Assembly: GCA_944363525.1 (NCBI GenBank)
Contig: CALVUF010000006.1
Coordinates: 1-64,000, forward strand
Length of the DNA: 64,000 nt
Reading direction: 5' to 3'
Source of the DNA: an uncultured Bacilli bacterium
Lineage (GTDB): Bacteria; Bacillota_I; Bacilli_A; RFN20; CAG-826
This document shows, piece after piece, positions 1 through 34,372 of the stretch. The position numbers were made by a program, and so were the translations under genes. The first letter of the stretch is position 1, and every line of letters begins with the position of its first letter. A model generated the notes under the pieces. The model did no database searches. It had not been told where the DNA came from and worked only from the letters and a program-made list of their open reading frames with translations.

Positions 1-140
1 TCGTGCTGTACATTCCTTTTCCTTTCCGTCCGCCTATGCGGCGGGCTCTGTCATATTATCGCCCCGGCGCTGTGCACCGGCTCGGTTTGATTTGTCCACT
101 TTTAGGTTACCACTGCAAAATTGATCGATTAATCTCGTCC
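1..140. other. Non-coding start of window
   Basis: No open frame with coding character was found and no RNA gene was recognised. The stretch leads into the 33-bp repeat array that starts near 143. A gene ending to the left of the window cannot be excluded. Confidence 0.4.
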
Positions 141-142
141 TA

Positions 143-293
143 ATAATCTCAATTAGGTGCAAAAACACTGGTTAAATAATCTTGTTTTGGTGTATGAACT
201 CCACTTTGATAATCTCATTTTGGTGTATCATTAACAATCTGATAATCTCAATTTGGTGTATTCTAAGGCTTCCAATAACCTTAATTTGGTGTA
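143..293 (+). repeat. Five direct repeats, 33-bp period, upstream of DUF4143 gene
   Basis: Five copies of a 19-bp unit close to ATAATCTCAATTTGGTGTA begin at 143, 176, 209, 242 and 275, so the period is exactly 33 bp with 14-bp unrelated spacers. The GGTG core sits at offset 13 in all five. The last copy ends 15 nt before the ATG at 309 and overlaps a possible -10 (TATTAT, 292-297). This looks like an operator array rather than a CRISPR, because both units and spacers are too short. Confidence 0.9.
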
Positions 294-308
294 TTATGTG
301 CTTAAGTT

Positions 309-1661
309 ATGAAGATGAAACGGAAGTTATATCAGCAAATGCTCCAATGGAAGGAGCGTAGCCAGGGCCAGACTGCTCTATTGATTGAGGGGGCTCGGCG
401 GACAGGCAAAAGCTATATCGTCGAGCAATTTGCTAAAGCTGAATACCGTTCCTACCTCCTCATCGATTTCGCCGTTGCCCCCGAGCAAGTCAAAAGTCTC
501 TTCAACGATTACCTTTATGACCTCGATGCCTTTTTCCTTTTCCTCCGCAGTTTCTACCCCACTCCGCTATATCGGCGAAAATCAGTCATAATCTTCGACG
601 AGGTCCAGCGCTTCCCGCGGGCCCGCGAAGCCATCAAATACCTTGTCAAGGATGGACGATACGATTACATCGAAACCGGGTCGTTGCTTTCGATTAAGAA
701 AAACGTCAAGGACATCAATATCCCCTCCGAGGAGAGGCATTTGAAGCTCTACCCGATGGATTTTGAGGAGTTCCTTTGGGCCGAAGGCAACGACGCCCTT
801 TTGCCTTTGCTGGAAAAGCAGTTCGCCTCTCGCTTGCCCTTAGGCCCCCAAATGCACCGGATGGCCATGGACCTTTTTCGCCAATACCTGATAGTCGGCG
901 GAATGCCTCAAGCGGTCGACTGTTTCATCCAAACTCAAGACTTCGAACAAGTCGACCTCGTTAAGCAGGATATATTGGATCTGTATCGTCAGGATATCGT
1001 TAAGCATGCCGATGCAGATGTCTCGAAGGTAAATCGCATCCTCGATGACTTGCCTTCGCAGTTAGGAAAACATGAGAAGGTTTTCCGCTTAACTTCTTTA
1101 TCGAAAGGTGCTCGGTACCGGGATTTCGAAACCGCCTTTTACTGGCTTGATGACGCCGGCATTGTCAACACCGCCTATAACAGTAGCGAGCCGACCGTTG
1201 GGCTATCGCTAAGCAAAGACAATGCCAGTTTCAAATGCTATCTGGCTGACACGGGCCTTCTTTTAACCCTCGCCTTCAATGAGCCAGTTGAGAAATCCGC
1301 CCTTTATCGGAAGATCCTCTTCGATAAGTTGAATTTCAATCAAGGGATGATCTTAGAGAACGCCGTCGCCCAAATGCTGCGAGCCAAAGGTCACTCGCTC
1401 TATTTCTATTCCCGAAGTGGCCAAGAGGCGGACAAACGGATGGAAATCGATTTTCTCACCGTCAAAAGGTCAATTACCTCGCAGCATAACGTCTGCCCGA
1501 TCGAGGTCAAATCCTCAACTCGCTATACACTGAATTCGCTTAAAAAATTCAAAACCAAATTCTCCGATCAAATCGACACCCCGTATTTGCTCCATCCCGG
1601 AGATGTGGAAATCAAGGATGATATTATCTATCTCCCCTACTACATGGCCCCATTGCTATGA
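309..1661 (+). CDS. AAA ATPase with DUF4143 nuclease-like C-terminus
   Basis: A 450-residue protein of the AAA_14/DUF4143 family. A P-loop GARRTGKS lies at residues 28-35, a Walker B FDEVQ at about 96-100 and a sensor-like TGSLLS at 123-128. The C-terminal part carries EIDFL followed by PIEVKSS, the D...ExK pattern of PD-(D/E)XK-like folds described for this family. The cellular role of these ATPases is not established; they are widespread, multi-copy and often strain-variable. The start at 309 has no Shine-Dalgarno sequence, and a TATTAT at 292-297 would give a very short leader. The five-copy 33-bp repeat array directly upstream suggests dedicated regulation. A second family member lies at 2341-3654 in opposite orientation. 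Confidence 0.85.
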   Translation: MKMKRKLYQQMLQWKERSQGQTALLIEGARRTGKSYIVEQFAKAEYRSYLLIDFAVAPEQVKSLFNDYLYDLDAFFLFLRSFYPTPLYRRKSVIIFDEVQRFPRAREAIKYLVKDGRYDYIETGSLLSIKKNVKDINIPSEERHLKLYPMDFEEFLWAEGNDALLPLLEKQFASRLPLGPQMHRMAMDLFRQYLIVGGMPQAVDCFIQTQDFEQVDLVKQDILDLYRQDIVKHADADVSKVNRILDDLPSQLGKHEKVFRLTSLSKGARYRDFETAFYWLDDAGIVNTAYNSSEPTVGLSLSKDNASFKCYLADTGLLLTLAFNEPVEKSALYRKILFDKLNFNQGMILENAVAQMLRAKGHSLYFYSRSGQEADKRMEIDFLTVKRSITSQHNVCPIEVKSSTRYTLNSLKKFKTKFSDQIDTPYLLHPGDVEIKDDIIYLPYYMAPLL

Positions 1662-1670
1662 GGTGCAAAT

Positions 1671-1697
1671 AAAAACCGCCCAGAGTAACGGACGGGG
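1671..1697 (-). terminator. Possible terminator of tRNA-Pro
   Basis: A short stem (CCGCC / GGACGG with one bulged A) is followed on the minus strand by a run of T. It lies just after the 3' end of tRNA-Pro. The stem is weak. Confidence 0.35.
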
Positions 1698-1709
1698 TAT
1701 TCGTAGGAA

Positions 1710-1787
1710 TGGTCGGGATGGGCGGATTCGAACCGCCGGTCTTCTGCTCCCAAAGCAGACGCGATAACCAAGCTTCGCTACATCCCG
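1710..1787 (-). tRNA. tRNA-Pro (TGG)
   Basis: A full cloverleaf on the minus strand with acceptor CGGGATG/CATCCCG, anticodon loop TTTGGGA reading TGG, and T-loop TTCGAAT. The 3' CCA is encoded in the genome (1710-1712). Confidence 0.95.
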
Positions 1788-1796
1788 AGCCCGCTT

Positions 1797-1825
1797 ATTA
1801 TCCGCGCCGGTGGAAGATATTTCAA
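1797..1825 (-). promoter_or_regulatory. Promoter of tRNA-Pro
   Basis: On the minus strand TTGAAA (1820-1825) is separated by 17 bp from GATAAT (1797-1802), ten bases before the tRNA 5' end. Confidence 0.65.
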
Positions 1826-1935
1826 TATCGCGATCCGCATCTAGGCGCAGCGGGAATCTTGCCCCTTCTCTGCATAAGGGCGACGGAAAGACCAACGACT
1901 AATCGAACCAAAGAGACAAGGCTAATAAATCAAAC

Positions 1936-1960
1936 AAAAAACCCTCGAATTAGTCGAGGG
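1936..1960 (-). terminator. Terminator of tRNA-Arg
   Basis: A six-pair stem CCCTCG/CGAGGG is followed on the minus strand by a T-rich run, 12 nt after the tRNA-Arg 3' end. Confidence 0.75.
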
Positions 1961-1971
1961 AATTTGACTTT

Positions 1972-2048
1972 TGGCGCGCCCGGGGGGACTCGAACCCACA
2001 ACCCCCAGATTCGTAGTCTGGTACTCTATCCAGTTGAGCTACGGGCGC
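1972..2048 (-). tRNA. tRNA-Arg (ACG)
   Basis: A cloverleaf on the minus strand with acceptor GCGCCCG/CGGGCGC, anticodon loop CTACGAA reading ACG, T-loop TTCGAGT, and CCA encoded. The T-stem GTGGG/CCCCC contains one T-C mismatch. Confidence 0.95.
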
Positions 2049-2071
2049 AACACCGCTTTCACGGCCTTGCT

Positions 2072-2100
2072 AATATATGCCCTTTTGTCCCACCTATCAA
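2072..2100 (-). promoter_or_regulatory. Promoter of tRNA-Arg
   Basis: TTGATA (2095-2100), a 17-bp spacer and TATATT (2072-2077) on the minus strand form a near-consensus promoter about 23 nt before the tRNA. Confidence 0.75.
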
Positions 2101-2183
2101 TAGGGAAATGGGAAGACCTCGGCAAAATCGGCAATTTCAAAACGAATATAATATATATCTTGTTGTTCATTGTACGGTTCATT

Positions 2184-2259
2184 GTAATAGAGATTTGCTC
2201 AATTGTAATAGTTTCGTAATAGCGTCGTAATAGTCTCGTAAGACCTTCGTAATAGGCAA
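2184..2259. repeat. 11-bp period direct repeats (GTAATAG)
   Basis: GTAATAG-like units start at 2205, 2216, 2227, 2238 and 2249, an exact 11-bp period; the 2238 unit is degenerate (GTAAGAC). A further copy at 2184 is 21 bp away. The array lies between the 3' end of the second DUF4143 gene and the tRNA-Arg promoter. Direct heptamers in 11-bp phase resemble binding arrays of OmpR/PhoB-type regulators, but the protein that binds here is unknown. Confidence 0.8.
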
Positions 2260-2340
2260 AATAAGAGTCTGGGCTCTCTTTGAACAGCAATCCATGAAAG
2301 CCAAAAACCGGCAATCCCTAGCTCCATCAATCGCTTTCCC

Positions 2341-3654
2341 TCAAGGCTTTAAACAGCCAATTGGAACAATATGAACCCCGTTTTTTGTCGTCATCCCCGT
2401 CGGTACGACCCCGCCGATAACAATCAAAGCCGAAGGCAAAGCCTGAATGGCGGACGGATCGCTGACCGTCGAATTGTAAGCCATCATTTCCTCTTTGATA
2501 GAGAGTAGATGCTTTTCCCCTTCTAGCAAAGGCTTCATCCCACCCGTCTTTATCTCAATAAGCGCATAACGGCCATCGTTAAGACGCAAGACCGCATCGG
2601 CTTCCAAACCATGTCGGTCTCGGTAATGGAAAACCGATCCCCCGATGGTCGCGGCATAAACCTGTAAATCACGAAGGACAAGATTTTCGAAGAAAAACCC
2701 GAAATCCGCCGGGCGGGAAAGCAAATCCGCTTCGCTAAGATGCAAAGCGGCAATGGCCAAGGACGGATCGATAAACGTCTTTTTTGGCGAAGCAATGATA
2801 TTTACCCGCGATTTAAAGGCCGACGACCAGGCCGGTATTTCCTCTATTATGTAGCGCCGGTTCAAAAAATAGCGGTAACGTTCAAAGGTCGCCTGACTGA
2901 CCGGGAAATTCTCCTCGCCTTTGATGTTGGCTAACATCGTGGCATAGGAGGTTAAGGTGCAGTCATTACGAGCTAACTCCGAGAGAAATAACCGCATACG
3001 ATCTTTGGAAAGACCCACTCCGCCCTCTTCATCGAATCCGAGGTTATCGGTCAAGTTGGCGATAATGGTCGAGGCAACGAACCCGGCTTCTTCGTATGGA
3101 AGCTCGAGCGACCGGGGGAAGCCTCCCCGATGGCAAAGGTGCACCAATTGCTTATAGGTCAAATTAGATTTAGCCCCGTTTACCTTGGCGGCCGGCTCAA
3201 AAAGGGATTGGAGAGAAACCGACCCATCGGACTCCCCAGACTCAAACAAAGACATCGGCCGAAGGAAAAGGGTGGCGATCCGACCAAGGCCGGAATGATG
3301 GATATACTCCCGTTTTTTCTCCTCAGATAGCTCATTCGACCCAGTCAAAAGAACCCGTCCTCCCTTGGCATGATTGGCGTCGATAAAGATTTTGCACTCA
3401 TCCCAAATTGGCGGAAAGCATTGCCATTCATCAAAGAGAATCGGAGGCTCATGCTCGAAAATAAGCGAGGGATCGACATCATAGAGCCCTTGAACCGTCA
3501 GCAAATCATTCCGCGACAGCAATTTATAGGCGAAATGAGCATGCTGAAGGCAAGAGGTGGTTTTGCCAACCCATTTAGGCCCGCGCAGGTACACCCCGCC
3601 GAGCAAAGACAGGTTCTTTTCAATCAGGCTATCCAAGAGTCGAGGACGGTACAT
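2341..3654 (-). CDS. AAA ATPase with DUF4143 domain
   Basis: A 437-residue AAA_14/DUF4143 protein. P-loop GPKWVGKT is at residues 25-32, Walker B ILFDEWQ at about 72-78, a sensor LLTGSNEL follows, and the C-terminal part has LEADAVL and ALIEIKTGG, the D...ExK pattern of a PD-(D/E)XK-like fold. The start MYRPRLLD at 3654 is preceded by AAAGGAAACCC, a good ribosome site. A longer frame opens to 3777 but runs through the repeat array, the promoter and the tRNA-Cys terminator, so it is not the real start. It is only distantly similar to the 309-1661 protein. Its promoter holds three 23-bp-spaced repeats. Function in the cell is unknown. Confidence 0.85.
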   Translation of the reverse strand: MYRPRLLDSLIEKNLSLLGGVYLRGPKWVGKTTSCLQHAHFAYKLLSRNDLLTVQGLYDVDPSLIFEHEPPILFDEWQCFPPIWDECKIFIDANHAKGGRVLLTGSNELSEEKKREYIHHSGLGRIATLFLRPMSLFESGESDGSVSLQSLFEPAAKVNGAKSNLTYKQLVHLCHRGGFPRSLELPYEEAGFVASTIIANLTDNLGFDEEGGVGLSKDRMRLFLSELARNDCTLTSYATMLANIKGEENFPVSQATFERYRYFLNRRYIIEEIPAWSSAFKSRVNIIASPKKTFIDPSLAIAALHLSEADLLSRPADFGFFFENLVLRDLQVYAATIGGSVFHYRDRHGLEADAVLRLNDGRYALIEIKTGGMKPLLEGEKHLLSIKEEMMAYNSTVSDPSAIQALPSALIVIGGVVPTGMTTKNGVHIVPIGCLKP

Positions 3655-3669
3655 CGGGTTTCCTTTCGC

Positions 3670-3744
3670 TGGCATTATATGGTCGGTGATGGCATTTTTC
3701 AATAATCCGTGATGGCATTTTTGAAAGTTTCGTGATGGCATTTT
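3670..3744 (-). repeat. Three direct repeats, 23-bp period, in DUF4143 promoter
   Basis: On the minus strand the 13-mer AAAATGCCATCAC occurs three times without mismatch, at 3732-3744, 3709-3721 and 3686-3698, exactly 23 bp apart. A partial ATGCCA follows at 3670-3675, 20 bp on. The copy nearest the gene lies between the -35 and -10. Confidence 0.9.
3674..3702 (-). promoter_or_regulatory. Promoter of second DUF4143 ATPase
   Basis: TTGAAA (3697-3702), 17 bp, TATAAT (3674-3679) on the minus strand, 20 nt before the ATG at 3654. A copy of the 23-bp-spaced repeat fills most of the spacer, so a protein bound there would be expected to affect RNA polymerase directly. Confidence 0.75.
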
Positions 3745-3755
3745 CGAGACAAAAG

Positions 3756-3786
3756 CCAATAAAAATAGCCGAGACAATCTCGGCTA
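3756..3786 (-). terminator. Terminator of tRNA-Cys
   Basis: A nine-pair stem TAGCCGAGA/TCTCGGCTA with a 3-nt loop is followed on the minus strand by TTTTTATT. Confidence 0.85.
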
Positions 3787-3798
3787 AACAATTCAAGA

Positions 3799-3872
3799 TG
3801 GAGCATCCAGCCGGATTTGAACCGACGGTGAGTGAGTTGCAGTCACTTGCCTTACCACTTGGCTATGGATGC
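3799..3872 (-). tRNA. tRNA-Cys (GCA)
   Basis: A cloverleaf on the minus strand with acceptor GCATCCA/TGGATGC, discriminator T (usual for Cys), anticodon loop CTGCAAC reading GCA, and CCA encoded. Confidence 0.95.
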
Positions 3873-3881
3873 AGCGGACGA

Positions 3882-3910
3882 ATTATAACATAACTGACCC
3901 GCTAAGAAAG
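3882..3910 (-). promoter_or_regulatory. Probable promoter of tRNA-Cys
   Basis: TATAAT (3882-3887, minus strand) lies 9 nt before the tRNA, with CTTTCT 17 bp upstream as a weak -35. Confidence 0.5.
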
Positions 3911-4044
3911 AGGGATTTTTCGTAGCGTCCCCTCCGGTCAGAAACCCAAACCTGCTCCCCCCACCTATTAGGACTTTAATCGAGTTTTCGAAGGTGGCAT
4001 CCTAGAAAAGAAGGCATACGAATTGCCTTGAAAGGGAAACGATC

Positions 4045-4610
4045 ATGGTTGAAGTAGTCCTGACTGAGCAAGAGAAAAGCCTCTTACGGTCATTGATCGG
4101 CAAAAGGCTTCTAAAGCTTCGCCACGACAACCTGGAGAAATTTGGGGGTTCCGAGGTTTATGGTCGAGTGGAACTGTTTTTCGAAAATTCCGTGATTGCT
4201 ATAGATTACGATTACACCCCCTACCATTTGTTCGGCAGTCCGGATGATAGCATCCAGAATTTCAAATACATCAGATAACTGCTGAGGAAGCAATATCTGC
4301 TTTAGTCGACGTTAAGCAAATAGACGTTGCCTGCAATCAAACAATTCAAGATATAATCCTAGTCGAGGACTGTCCCAAAGTTCGCTGGAACGGACTGAAT
4401 GATGAAGCTCTCATTCTTAAAGTAATTATTCTAAAATCAGAAAATCGCGAAATAGCATTTCAAGGCGATTTTATGGTTTCCTTTATTGAAATCATAAAAA
4501 AGCCCGATGTCGAAGCTGATCTATTGCCCGCCGGCGAGGAATTCTATAGCGATGCAGAAGTCAGCTATCAAGGGAGCCGGGCATTCATCAGCTTAACAAA
4601 GCCGAATTAG
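4045..4610 (+). pseudogene. Frameshifted gene of unknown function
   Basis: The first part (4045-4278, 77 residues) starts at an ATG with an AAAGGG ribosome site and reads MVEVVLTEQEKSLLRSLIGK. It stops at TAA 4276-4278. A second frame, open from 4251 to the TAG at 4608-4610, continues with coding character (about 110 residues, TAEEAISALVDVKQIDVACN at its start). A one-base change within 4251-4278 would join both into a protein of about 187 residues. No slippery heptamer for programmed frameshifting is visible, so a disrupted gene or a sequencing error is likelier. I do not recognise the family. The DNA is more AT-rich than its neighbours. The 3' end overlaps the convergent uppP stop by 3-4 nt. 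Confidence 0.6.
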
Positions 4611-27258: not shown

Positions 27259-27318
27259 TTGGAAGTGATTGGAAATAATTGGAAGACGTTGGAAGTTGTT
27301 GGAAGATGTCGGAAATAC
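27259..27318. repeat. Six direct repeats, 10-bp period (TTGGAA)
   Basis: TTGGAA units followed by four variable bases start at 27259, 27269, 27279, 27289, 27299 and 27309 (the last is TCGGAA). The period is exactly 10 bp. The array lies between the convergent 3' ends of pepT and tRNA-Gln. A second array with the same core is at 34255-34304. Confidence 0.85.
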
Positions 27319-33928: not shown

Positions 33929-34372
33929 AAATGGTCCCTCAATCTTCGATTGCGGGTCTAGCATACTTCCTTACAAAACCAGTTACAAGGGAACGAAAAA
34001 GCCGATTAAAAGGGTAGAAAAGAATTAATAGACACCAGTCCATATTTCGACTTTGCCCTATTGCTTGTACGATTTGAACGGCAAAAGATAAGGTTTAATC
34101 GAATATATCGCCGTTCGAAAAATACACAATAAGCCAGTTTGTATAGGTCGGATGGAAGGGAATTGAAGCAAAGGATAATGAGACGGAAAAACTTTTTATG
34201 TCTTTAACGTGCCGGGGCCGCTTTCCGCCTAATAATTATGGCAATCCTCAGCTAGTGGAATTGGGTGGATTTGAGTGGATTTTGTTGGAATTGAGTGGAA
34301 ATGTCGATTTTATCGGGCCTTTCTTTGCTCCCACAATCGCAACGCTTTTCTTGTAGAAAAACCTTAAAGCCC
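33929..34372. other. Intergenic region with 10-bp repeat array
   Basis: About 440 bp, AT-rich, no convincing coding frame. It contains the five-unit repeat array at 34255-34304. No promoter for the acyltransferase could be assigned with confidence. Confidence 0.5.
34255..34304. repeat. Five direct repeats, 10-bp period (GTGGAA)
   Basis: Units GTGGAATTGG, GTGGATTTGA, GTGGATTTTG, TTGGAATTGA and GTGGAAATGT start every 10 bp from 34255. The TGGA core is invariant and matches the TTGGAA array at 27259-27318. Confidence 0.85.

Follow-up and report, generated by a model that had tools for sequence, protein, structure and literature searches.

The direct-repeat array at positions 143 to 293 of the window, by which we mean the whole 64,000-nucleotide stretch analyzed here, is probably a private operator of the DUF4143 ATPase gene located behind it. 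Judged from sequence comparison, identical sites, all in the same orientation, follow one another on the gene's promoter side, and their unit is private to this gene and inherited with it. The step between units is set by the protein subfamily: 33 bp in A1 (the window type), 23 bp in A2 (the second window type), and no array in A3 (the L001 type). The prediction that the gene's own product binds the array is well supported by indirect evidence, and similarity comparisons indicate that the winged-helix domain of the ATPase may be the DNA-binding reader. With less certainty, we infer that binding represses the gene's own promoter, and the window ATPase may be tied to phage defense. An initial sequence-only reading had suggested that the repeats may serve DUF4143 ATPases as a dedicated control or target site; comparing repeats with protein subtype in A1 and A2 supports that suggestion.

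A repeat search confirmed what had first been read by inspection, namely five 19-bp units with four successive spacings of exactly 33 bp, ending 15 nt before the start codon (3' boundary at 293, ATG at 309; Table 1). Every copy matches TAATCTnnnTTnGGTGTA with at most one mismatch. The self-match observed in the 200 nt upstream of the gene at 309-1661 was reached by none of 60 dinucleotide shuffles, and identical scoring of 51 window genes yielded a single further significant gene, at a lag of 18. In the whole genome, all matches to the window unit with zero or one mismatch are the five array copies, and matches with two mismatches occur at about the level of a reversed-pattern control, except for one inside the array of the closest paralog, which lies on C1 and is 63% identical. 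This confinement led us to reject the idea of a dispersed repeat, and the genome-wide search excludes, for the window unit in its own genome, a dispersed family unrelated to these genes. Two details of the initial reading hold only in part. The last unit may overlap a -10 element, for which a weak TATTAT is a possible candidate, but a consensus scan at the window found no promoter. That bound proteins would share one face of the DNA holds only approximately, since at 10.5 bp per turn a 33-bp step makes 3.14 turns, and relatives also use 32- and 23-bp steps. A search of window positions 1-4300 for Rfam families returned only tRNA.

Table 1. Features of the window discussed in the text.
Feature	Position	Strand	Basis or remark
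Transposon-like end TGTCCACTTTTAGGTTACCACTGCA	93..117	+	Immediately upstream of the array
Repeat unit 1 ATAATCTCAATTAGGTGCA	143..161	+	One mismatch to the unit pattern; most degenerate
Repeat unit 2 ATAATCTTGTTTTGGTGTA	176..194	+	Repeat and unit-pattern search
Repeat unit 3 ATAATCTCATTTTGGTGTA	209..227	+	Repeat and unit-pattern search
Repeat unit 4 ATAATCTCAATTTGGTGTA	242..260	+	Repeat and unit-pattern search
Repeat unit 5 ATAACCTTAATTTGGTGTA	275..293	+	Abuts or overlaps the core promoter
Candidate -10 TATTAT, weak	292..297	+	Read from the sequence
A1-subfamily ATPase, 450 aa, AAA_14 + winged helix + DUF4143; PADLOC PDC-S01	309..1661	+	
Walker A GARRTGKS, residues 28-35	390..413	+	G28, G33, and K34 invariant in alignment
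Winged-helix region, residues 234-314, proposed unit reader	1008..1250	+	Model secondary structure and similarity coupling
Predicted recognition helix, residues 270-282, including R271	1116..1154	+	Model and residue statistics
Nuclease-like motif E350 ... E379-I-D381-F ... E399-V-K401, PD-(D/E)XK type, in DUF4143	1356..1511	+	
A2-subfamily AAA_14 + DUF4143 ATPase, 437 aa from ATG 3654; PADLOC PDC-S01	2341..3654	-	
Second array, AAAATGCCATCAC x3, exact 23-bp step	3686..3744	-	Upstream of the A2 gene; copies at 3744-3732, 3721-3709, and 3698-3686

The window contains a second gene of this kind, of the A2 subfamily and with its own array, and no DUF4143 match beyond these two. The genome of 1.57 Mb encodes 23 DUF4143 genes, most of which carry an upstream direct-repeat array, each different; the A1 gene L021 fails the array test. 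Copy number ranges from 2 to 28 among congeners and from 0 to 31 in other genomes of the same taxonomic order. A 20-kb stretch at C3:236000-255900 (L269) contains five DUF4143 genes together with two adjacent genes that resemble DUF262/GmrSD by eye, and this region is likely a defense island. One gene there (L018, L269:7032-8440) is split into two reading frames and retains a regular array upstream. We also observed a short repeat of period 11/22, GTAATAGTCTCGTAAGACCGTC, at window positions 2205-2255, past the 3' end of the A2 gene and near a tRNA-Arg, as well as intergenic runs of period 10/20, TTGGAAGATG and AGTGGAATTG, at 27259-27317 and 34254-34300, with near-helical phasing.

The relation between step and subfamily was examined in 152 deduplicated genes of the class, sorted by profile into A1, A2, and A3, 150 of which had enough upstream sequence for scoring. 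An unrestricted scan of every lag from 15 to 60, with 60 shuffles per gene, was significant for 72 of 110 A1 genes, and 71 of these 72 fell at 32-34 bp (33 bp in 52 genes, 32 in 16, 34 in 3); the remaining gene, L112, scored at lag 23, and the gene finder had apparently chosen a neighboring gene there. Among the A2 genes, 14 of 16 were significant, 11 at a lag of 23, two at 46 (twice 23), and one at 33 (L109), for which two copies at 23 bp are visible as well. Only 1 of 24 A3 genes was significant, and in coding-sequence controls the best lag was 32-33 for 2 of 110 A1 genes. A second set comprised 80 A1 loci with organism names, in hosts including Bacillota, Bacteroidota, Spirochaetota, Verrucomicrobiota, Coriobacteriaceae, Endomicrobium, Azoarcus, and a Methanomassiliicoccaceae archaeon; it gave 59 significant genes, 56 of them at 32 or 33 bp. 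A dedicated array finder, limited to the subfamily steps and calling an array when it scored better than all 25 shuffles, found arrays at 161 of 181 A1 genes (steps of 33 bp, 270; 32 bp, 77; 34 bp, 11) and at 14 of 16 A2 genes (23 bp, 38; 22 bp, 1). Each shuffle P value is only bounded, because the shuffle numbers are small (25-60).

The comparison of repeats with protein subtype that the sequence-only reading had suggested as a check is strongly positive for A1 and A2. The same reading had held that homologs without repeats would count against it. Such homologs exist in A3 and in 20 of 181 A1 genes, about a tenth, whereas the remaining A1 genes and 14 of 16 A2 genes carry arrays; the array-less A3 and the A1 minority limit the rule and do not refute it. 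We suspected that A3 genes might instead have an operator of inverted repeats, but only 7 of 24 A3 genes beat all 15 shuffles in a test for these, compared with 4 of 40 A1 and 1 of 16 A2 genes. Genes of A3, for example L001, L033, L029, and L041, lack direct arrays, and some have a dyad near the promoter, for instance TGGAATTGAATTCCA or AAAGTTGAACTTT.

The unit sequence follows the protein and not the host. Units of gene pairs from the same genome are no more alike than those of pairs from different genomes with similar protein identity. In 79 genes, another genome contains a relative at 60% identity or more. Out of 125 units, that of the relative came first for 26 of these genes, against 0.6 expected, and within the top five for 58. 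The Bacilli gene L154 and L247 of Candidatus Eisenbergiella, at 72% protein identity, have AAAACTCCCTTGAAAAAGTT in common, and L141 and L234, at 71% identity, have TATTCCAAAATGTTGAT in common.

The identification of the gene as a DUF4143 ATPase was borne out by Pfam, in which AAA_14 and DUF4143 (PF13173 and PF13635) scored above cut-off. The PDC-S01 models span residues 1-448 of the protein, and the PDC-S01 profile E-values for the two window proteins are 4.1e-109 and 3.4e-47. In an alignment of 21 paralogs, Walker A residues G28, G33, and K34 and Walker B residues D97 and E98 are invariant, as are E350, E379, and K401 of the nuclease-like motif; E399 is nearly invariant and D381 is also conserved. 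The AlphaFold model (pLDDT 90.0) places an AAA+ domain, a helical lid, and a winged helix (about 234-314) before the DUF4143 C-terminal part. When predicted alone, the C-terminal domain had a pLDDT of 34.8 and its fold was not resolved. The nearest solved structures, in a search in which most matches reach only residues 1-347, are the archaeal AAA+ ATPases 2qen (Z 16.9) and 2fna (Z 15.8), followed by STAND proteins and Orc1/Cdc6; the Orc/Cdc6 matches score Z 11-12, and AAA+ matches are common in general. By sequence, the protein does not belong to Orc1/Cdc6, as the Pfam scan yields AAA_14 and DUF4143 only, and a PDB sequence search returned no informative relative.

Which part of the protein might read the unit was assessed by relating regional protein similarity, beyond that of the rest of the protein, to unit similarity in three sets of pairs (45-90%, 50-85%, and 55-85% protein identity) with bootstrap intervals. 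Similarity in residues 234-314 predicts unit similarity with r values of 0.33, 0.28, and 0.38, and this is the only region with an interval above 0 in all three sets. Values for the AAA domain and lid are 0.04-0.11. Residues 315-450 reach 0.11-0.26; in the two narrower sets their intervals span 0, and even in the widest set their coupling (r 0.23-0.26) is weaker than that of the winged helix. In fine windows, coupling peaks at 266-291, which corresponds to the predicted recognition helix. A weak signal at residues 371-390 in the all-pair A1 window correlations was discarded, being dominated by distant pairs with unrelated units; once pairs were restricted to 45-90% identity, it was replaced by the winged helix.

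When all positions and residues were scanned against TGCA, the commonest half-site, the best predictor was R271, in the recognition helix (Fisher p 2e-9, uncorrected for phylogeny): TGCA is carried by 44 of 71 genes with R271 versus 10 of 72 without it. The pair K271-K272 accompanies TTCC in 5 of 8 genes, again uncorrected for phylogeny. In a closest-pair version, R271 ranked second of 538 tests, behind L25, and in close pairs P139 and P149 also score high for TGCA, so the effect of common descent is not entirely eliminated from these residue statistics. When five broad segments were compared in closely identical proteins, excess divergence between proteins differing in TGCA status was greatest in the recognition helix.

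ATPase protomers probably bind successive units, one per unit and head to tail. Each protomer, as an AAA+ (Orc/Cdc6/STAND-like) protein, would contact its unit with the winged helix. The footprint or stacking distance of neighboring protomers would then explain the fixed step, and contacts between neighbors would set the pitch of 33 or 23 bp, two values that differ by one helical turn. The last unit starts at a median of 55 nt before the ATG, with start codons assigned by rule and many source sequences being metagenome assemblies. Across the A1 genes, -10-like hexamers are most frequent 24-40 nt upstream of the ATG, and protomers occupying the array would therefore overlie the promoter or lie next to it. 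This position favors repression of the gene by its own product, which would be relieved once the ATPase becomes engaged elsewhere, for example during phage infection. The ATPase-nuclease would thereby be abundant only when needed, and private units would insulate the 20 or so paralogs of one cell from each other.

The transposon-like end TGTCnACTTTnAGGTTACCAnTGCA is also present in the same genome at C1:355788-355812, C3:114-138, C3:242905-242929, and C7:53-77. At 14 of its 21 sites in seven congeneric genomes, it lies directly upstream of an A1 gene, intact or broken, and in the same orientation. The assembly contigs C3, C6, and C7 start in or just before this end. A composite element, in which array and gene would lie between two transposon ends, is unsupported, as the downstream sequence is not common to the sites.

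Alternative explanations of the array differ in how well they accommodate these observations. It is possible, but unlikely, that the main role of the array is that of a platform for assembly or sensing, on which an ordered ATPase oligomer, comparable to Orc1/Cdc6 or DnaA on origin repeats, keeps the nuclease inactive or counts DNA copies, with any effect on transcription being secondary. The pitch stays at 33 or 23 bp through arrays that mostly have 3-5 units, which exceeds the number of sites required by a simple repressor, and Orc1/Cdc6 and STAND proteins are structural neighbors. The evidence on the reader, that is, the unit following the protein, the winged helix, and R271, fits such an oligomer equally. 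However, the arrays are located at the gene's own promoter, which is the typical place of an operator, and nowhere else in the genome does the window unit have a strong site. Arrays at promoters could likewise be due to a separate host regulator that binds them and controls the DUF4143 genes, yet we consider this very improbable: units differ among paralogs of one genome and agree between relatives in unrelated hosts, a pattern that rules out one common host regulator as the reader. In addition, the step changes with the protein subfamily, and the winged helix of the ATPase itself shows the clearest coupling.

Arrays might instead be sites of mobile DNA, either the ends of transposons or their targets, and the ATPase gene a mere passenger. 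The upstream transposon-like end and the wide swings in copy number between species of one genus would agree with this, but most arrays lack such an end, the genes beside it have different arrays and no common downstream sequence, the units track the winged helix and not the transposon, and arrays are conserved across phyla in hosts that lack the transposon family, which together make this explanation highly improbable. Ordinary tandem duplication or slippage, for example in a phase-variation tract, can also leave direct repeats near a promoter. Here, conservation between copies is confined to a unit core of about 20 bp and the spacers differ, which argues against recent duplication, and the periods are quantized at 33 and 23 bp by subfamily across phyla and seldom take other values; slippage is therefore scarcely credible.

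Similar arrays also occur in viral records. A search of IMG/VR for two copies of a common A1 unit core, 32-33 bp apart, led to viral contigs (L271, L272, L293, L302, and L304) with A1-type arrays at this step and at least three units visible. No DUF4143 gene was found on the viral records searched, which may be fragments, and two of the three search patterns, rerun at shifted spacing, gave no matches. The open reading frame downstream of the array encodes what we take by eye to be a small terminase subunit in L302 and an HAD-type protein in L304. Such contigs, with similar arrays and no DUF4143 gene, imply that some arrays do not serve the gene that follows them. The search also caught what are presumably hicAB-type gene pairs, judged by eye from reading frames that start like MKRKDLIKKLESVGFEFDRHGG, in L301, L303, L305, L307, L309, and probably L306, and two-copy matches alone are therefore not evidence. 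Upstream of the phage pairs in L301, L303, L305, L307, and L309, ATGTGTA is repeated at a 32-33-bp step; we rejected these repeats as ATPase-type arrays and regard them as an unrelated look-alike. As a lead only, the phage arrays may equally be decoys, hijacked operators, or marks by which a host ATPase recognizes the phage. A bolder and rather doubtful reading is that the array is a private address of its ATPase-nuclease, recognized through a partly readable winged-helix code and used in conflict with phages, some of which carry matching arrays before genes of their own without the ATPase. If true, a suspected defense family would consist of address-specific sensors with specificity predictable from sequence.

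Phased repeats beside the gene of their reader have parallels elsewhere. In archaea, the repeated sites known as origin recognition boxes adjoin the gene of the Orc1/Cdc6 protein that reads them, and the window ATPase may resemble Orc1/Cdc6 in its modeled fold, an AAA+ domain plus a winged helix. In contrast, PDC-S01 genes are many and dispersed on the chromosome, their products have a putative nuclease-like C-terminal domain, and a role in replication initiation is unsupported. Plasmid iterons and partition centromeres are phased direct repeats beside the gene of the binding protein, which is often autoregulated, whereas the arrays described here are chromosomal, number up to about 30 copies per genome, and each have another unit. 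A proven precedent for a defense-island promoter closed by a protein of its own island is RptR, which is encoded by a type I restriction-modification island and represses it by shutting a promoter on three direct repeats (PMC12255303). RptR is a separate small homodimer that recognizes a conserved 6-bp palindrome in 9-bp repeats (PMC12255303), whereas the binder proposed here is the ATPase-nuclease itself and the units differ per gene.

Both window proteins match the profiles of PDC-S01, a PADLOC phage-defense candidate (PDC) with a COG1373-like combination of AAA_14 and DUF4143. PDC-S01 has been described as an ATPase fused to a PD-(D/E)XK member and as the fourth most common defense system across prokaryotes (PMC12988326), and it is the most frequent single locus among rumen defense annotations (PMC13356809). 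Most PDCs await experimental validation, and PDC-S01 is listed as unvalidated (PMC12988326). To this description, our analysis would add three operator classes (33 bp, 23 bp, and none) that follow the protein subfamily. In the open-licence literature, we found no array, operator, or regulator of PDC-S01, no tested function for it, and no earlier description of arrays at DUF4143 genes; with the search confined to this literature, novelty is not proven.

With tens of thousands of genes, PDC-S01 is among the commonest defense annotations in bacteria and archaea. For a PDC-S01 protein, the array DNA is a ready ligand, the promoter a ready reporter, and R271 a testable residue, and the arrays allow subfamilies and start codons to be called from DNA alone. 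Finally, the private units suggest how a cell may run some 20 paralogs of this family without cross-talk.
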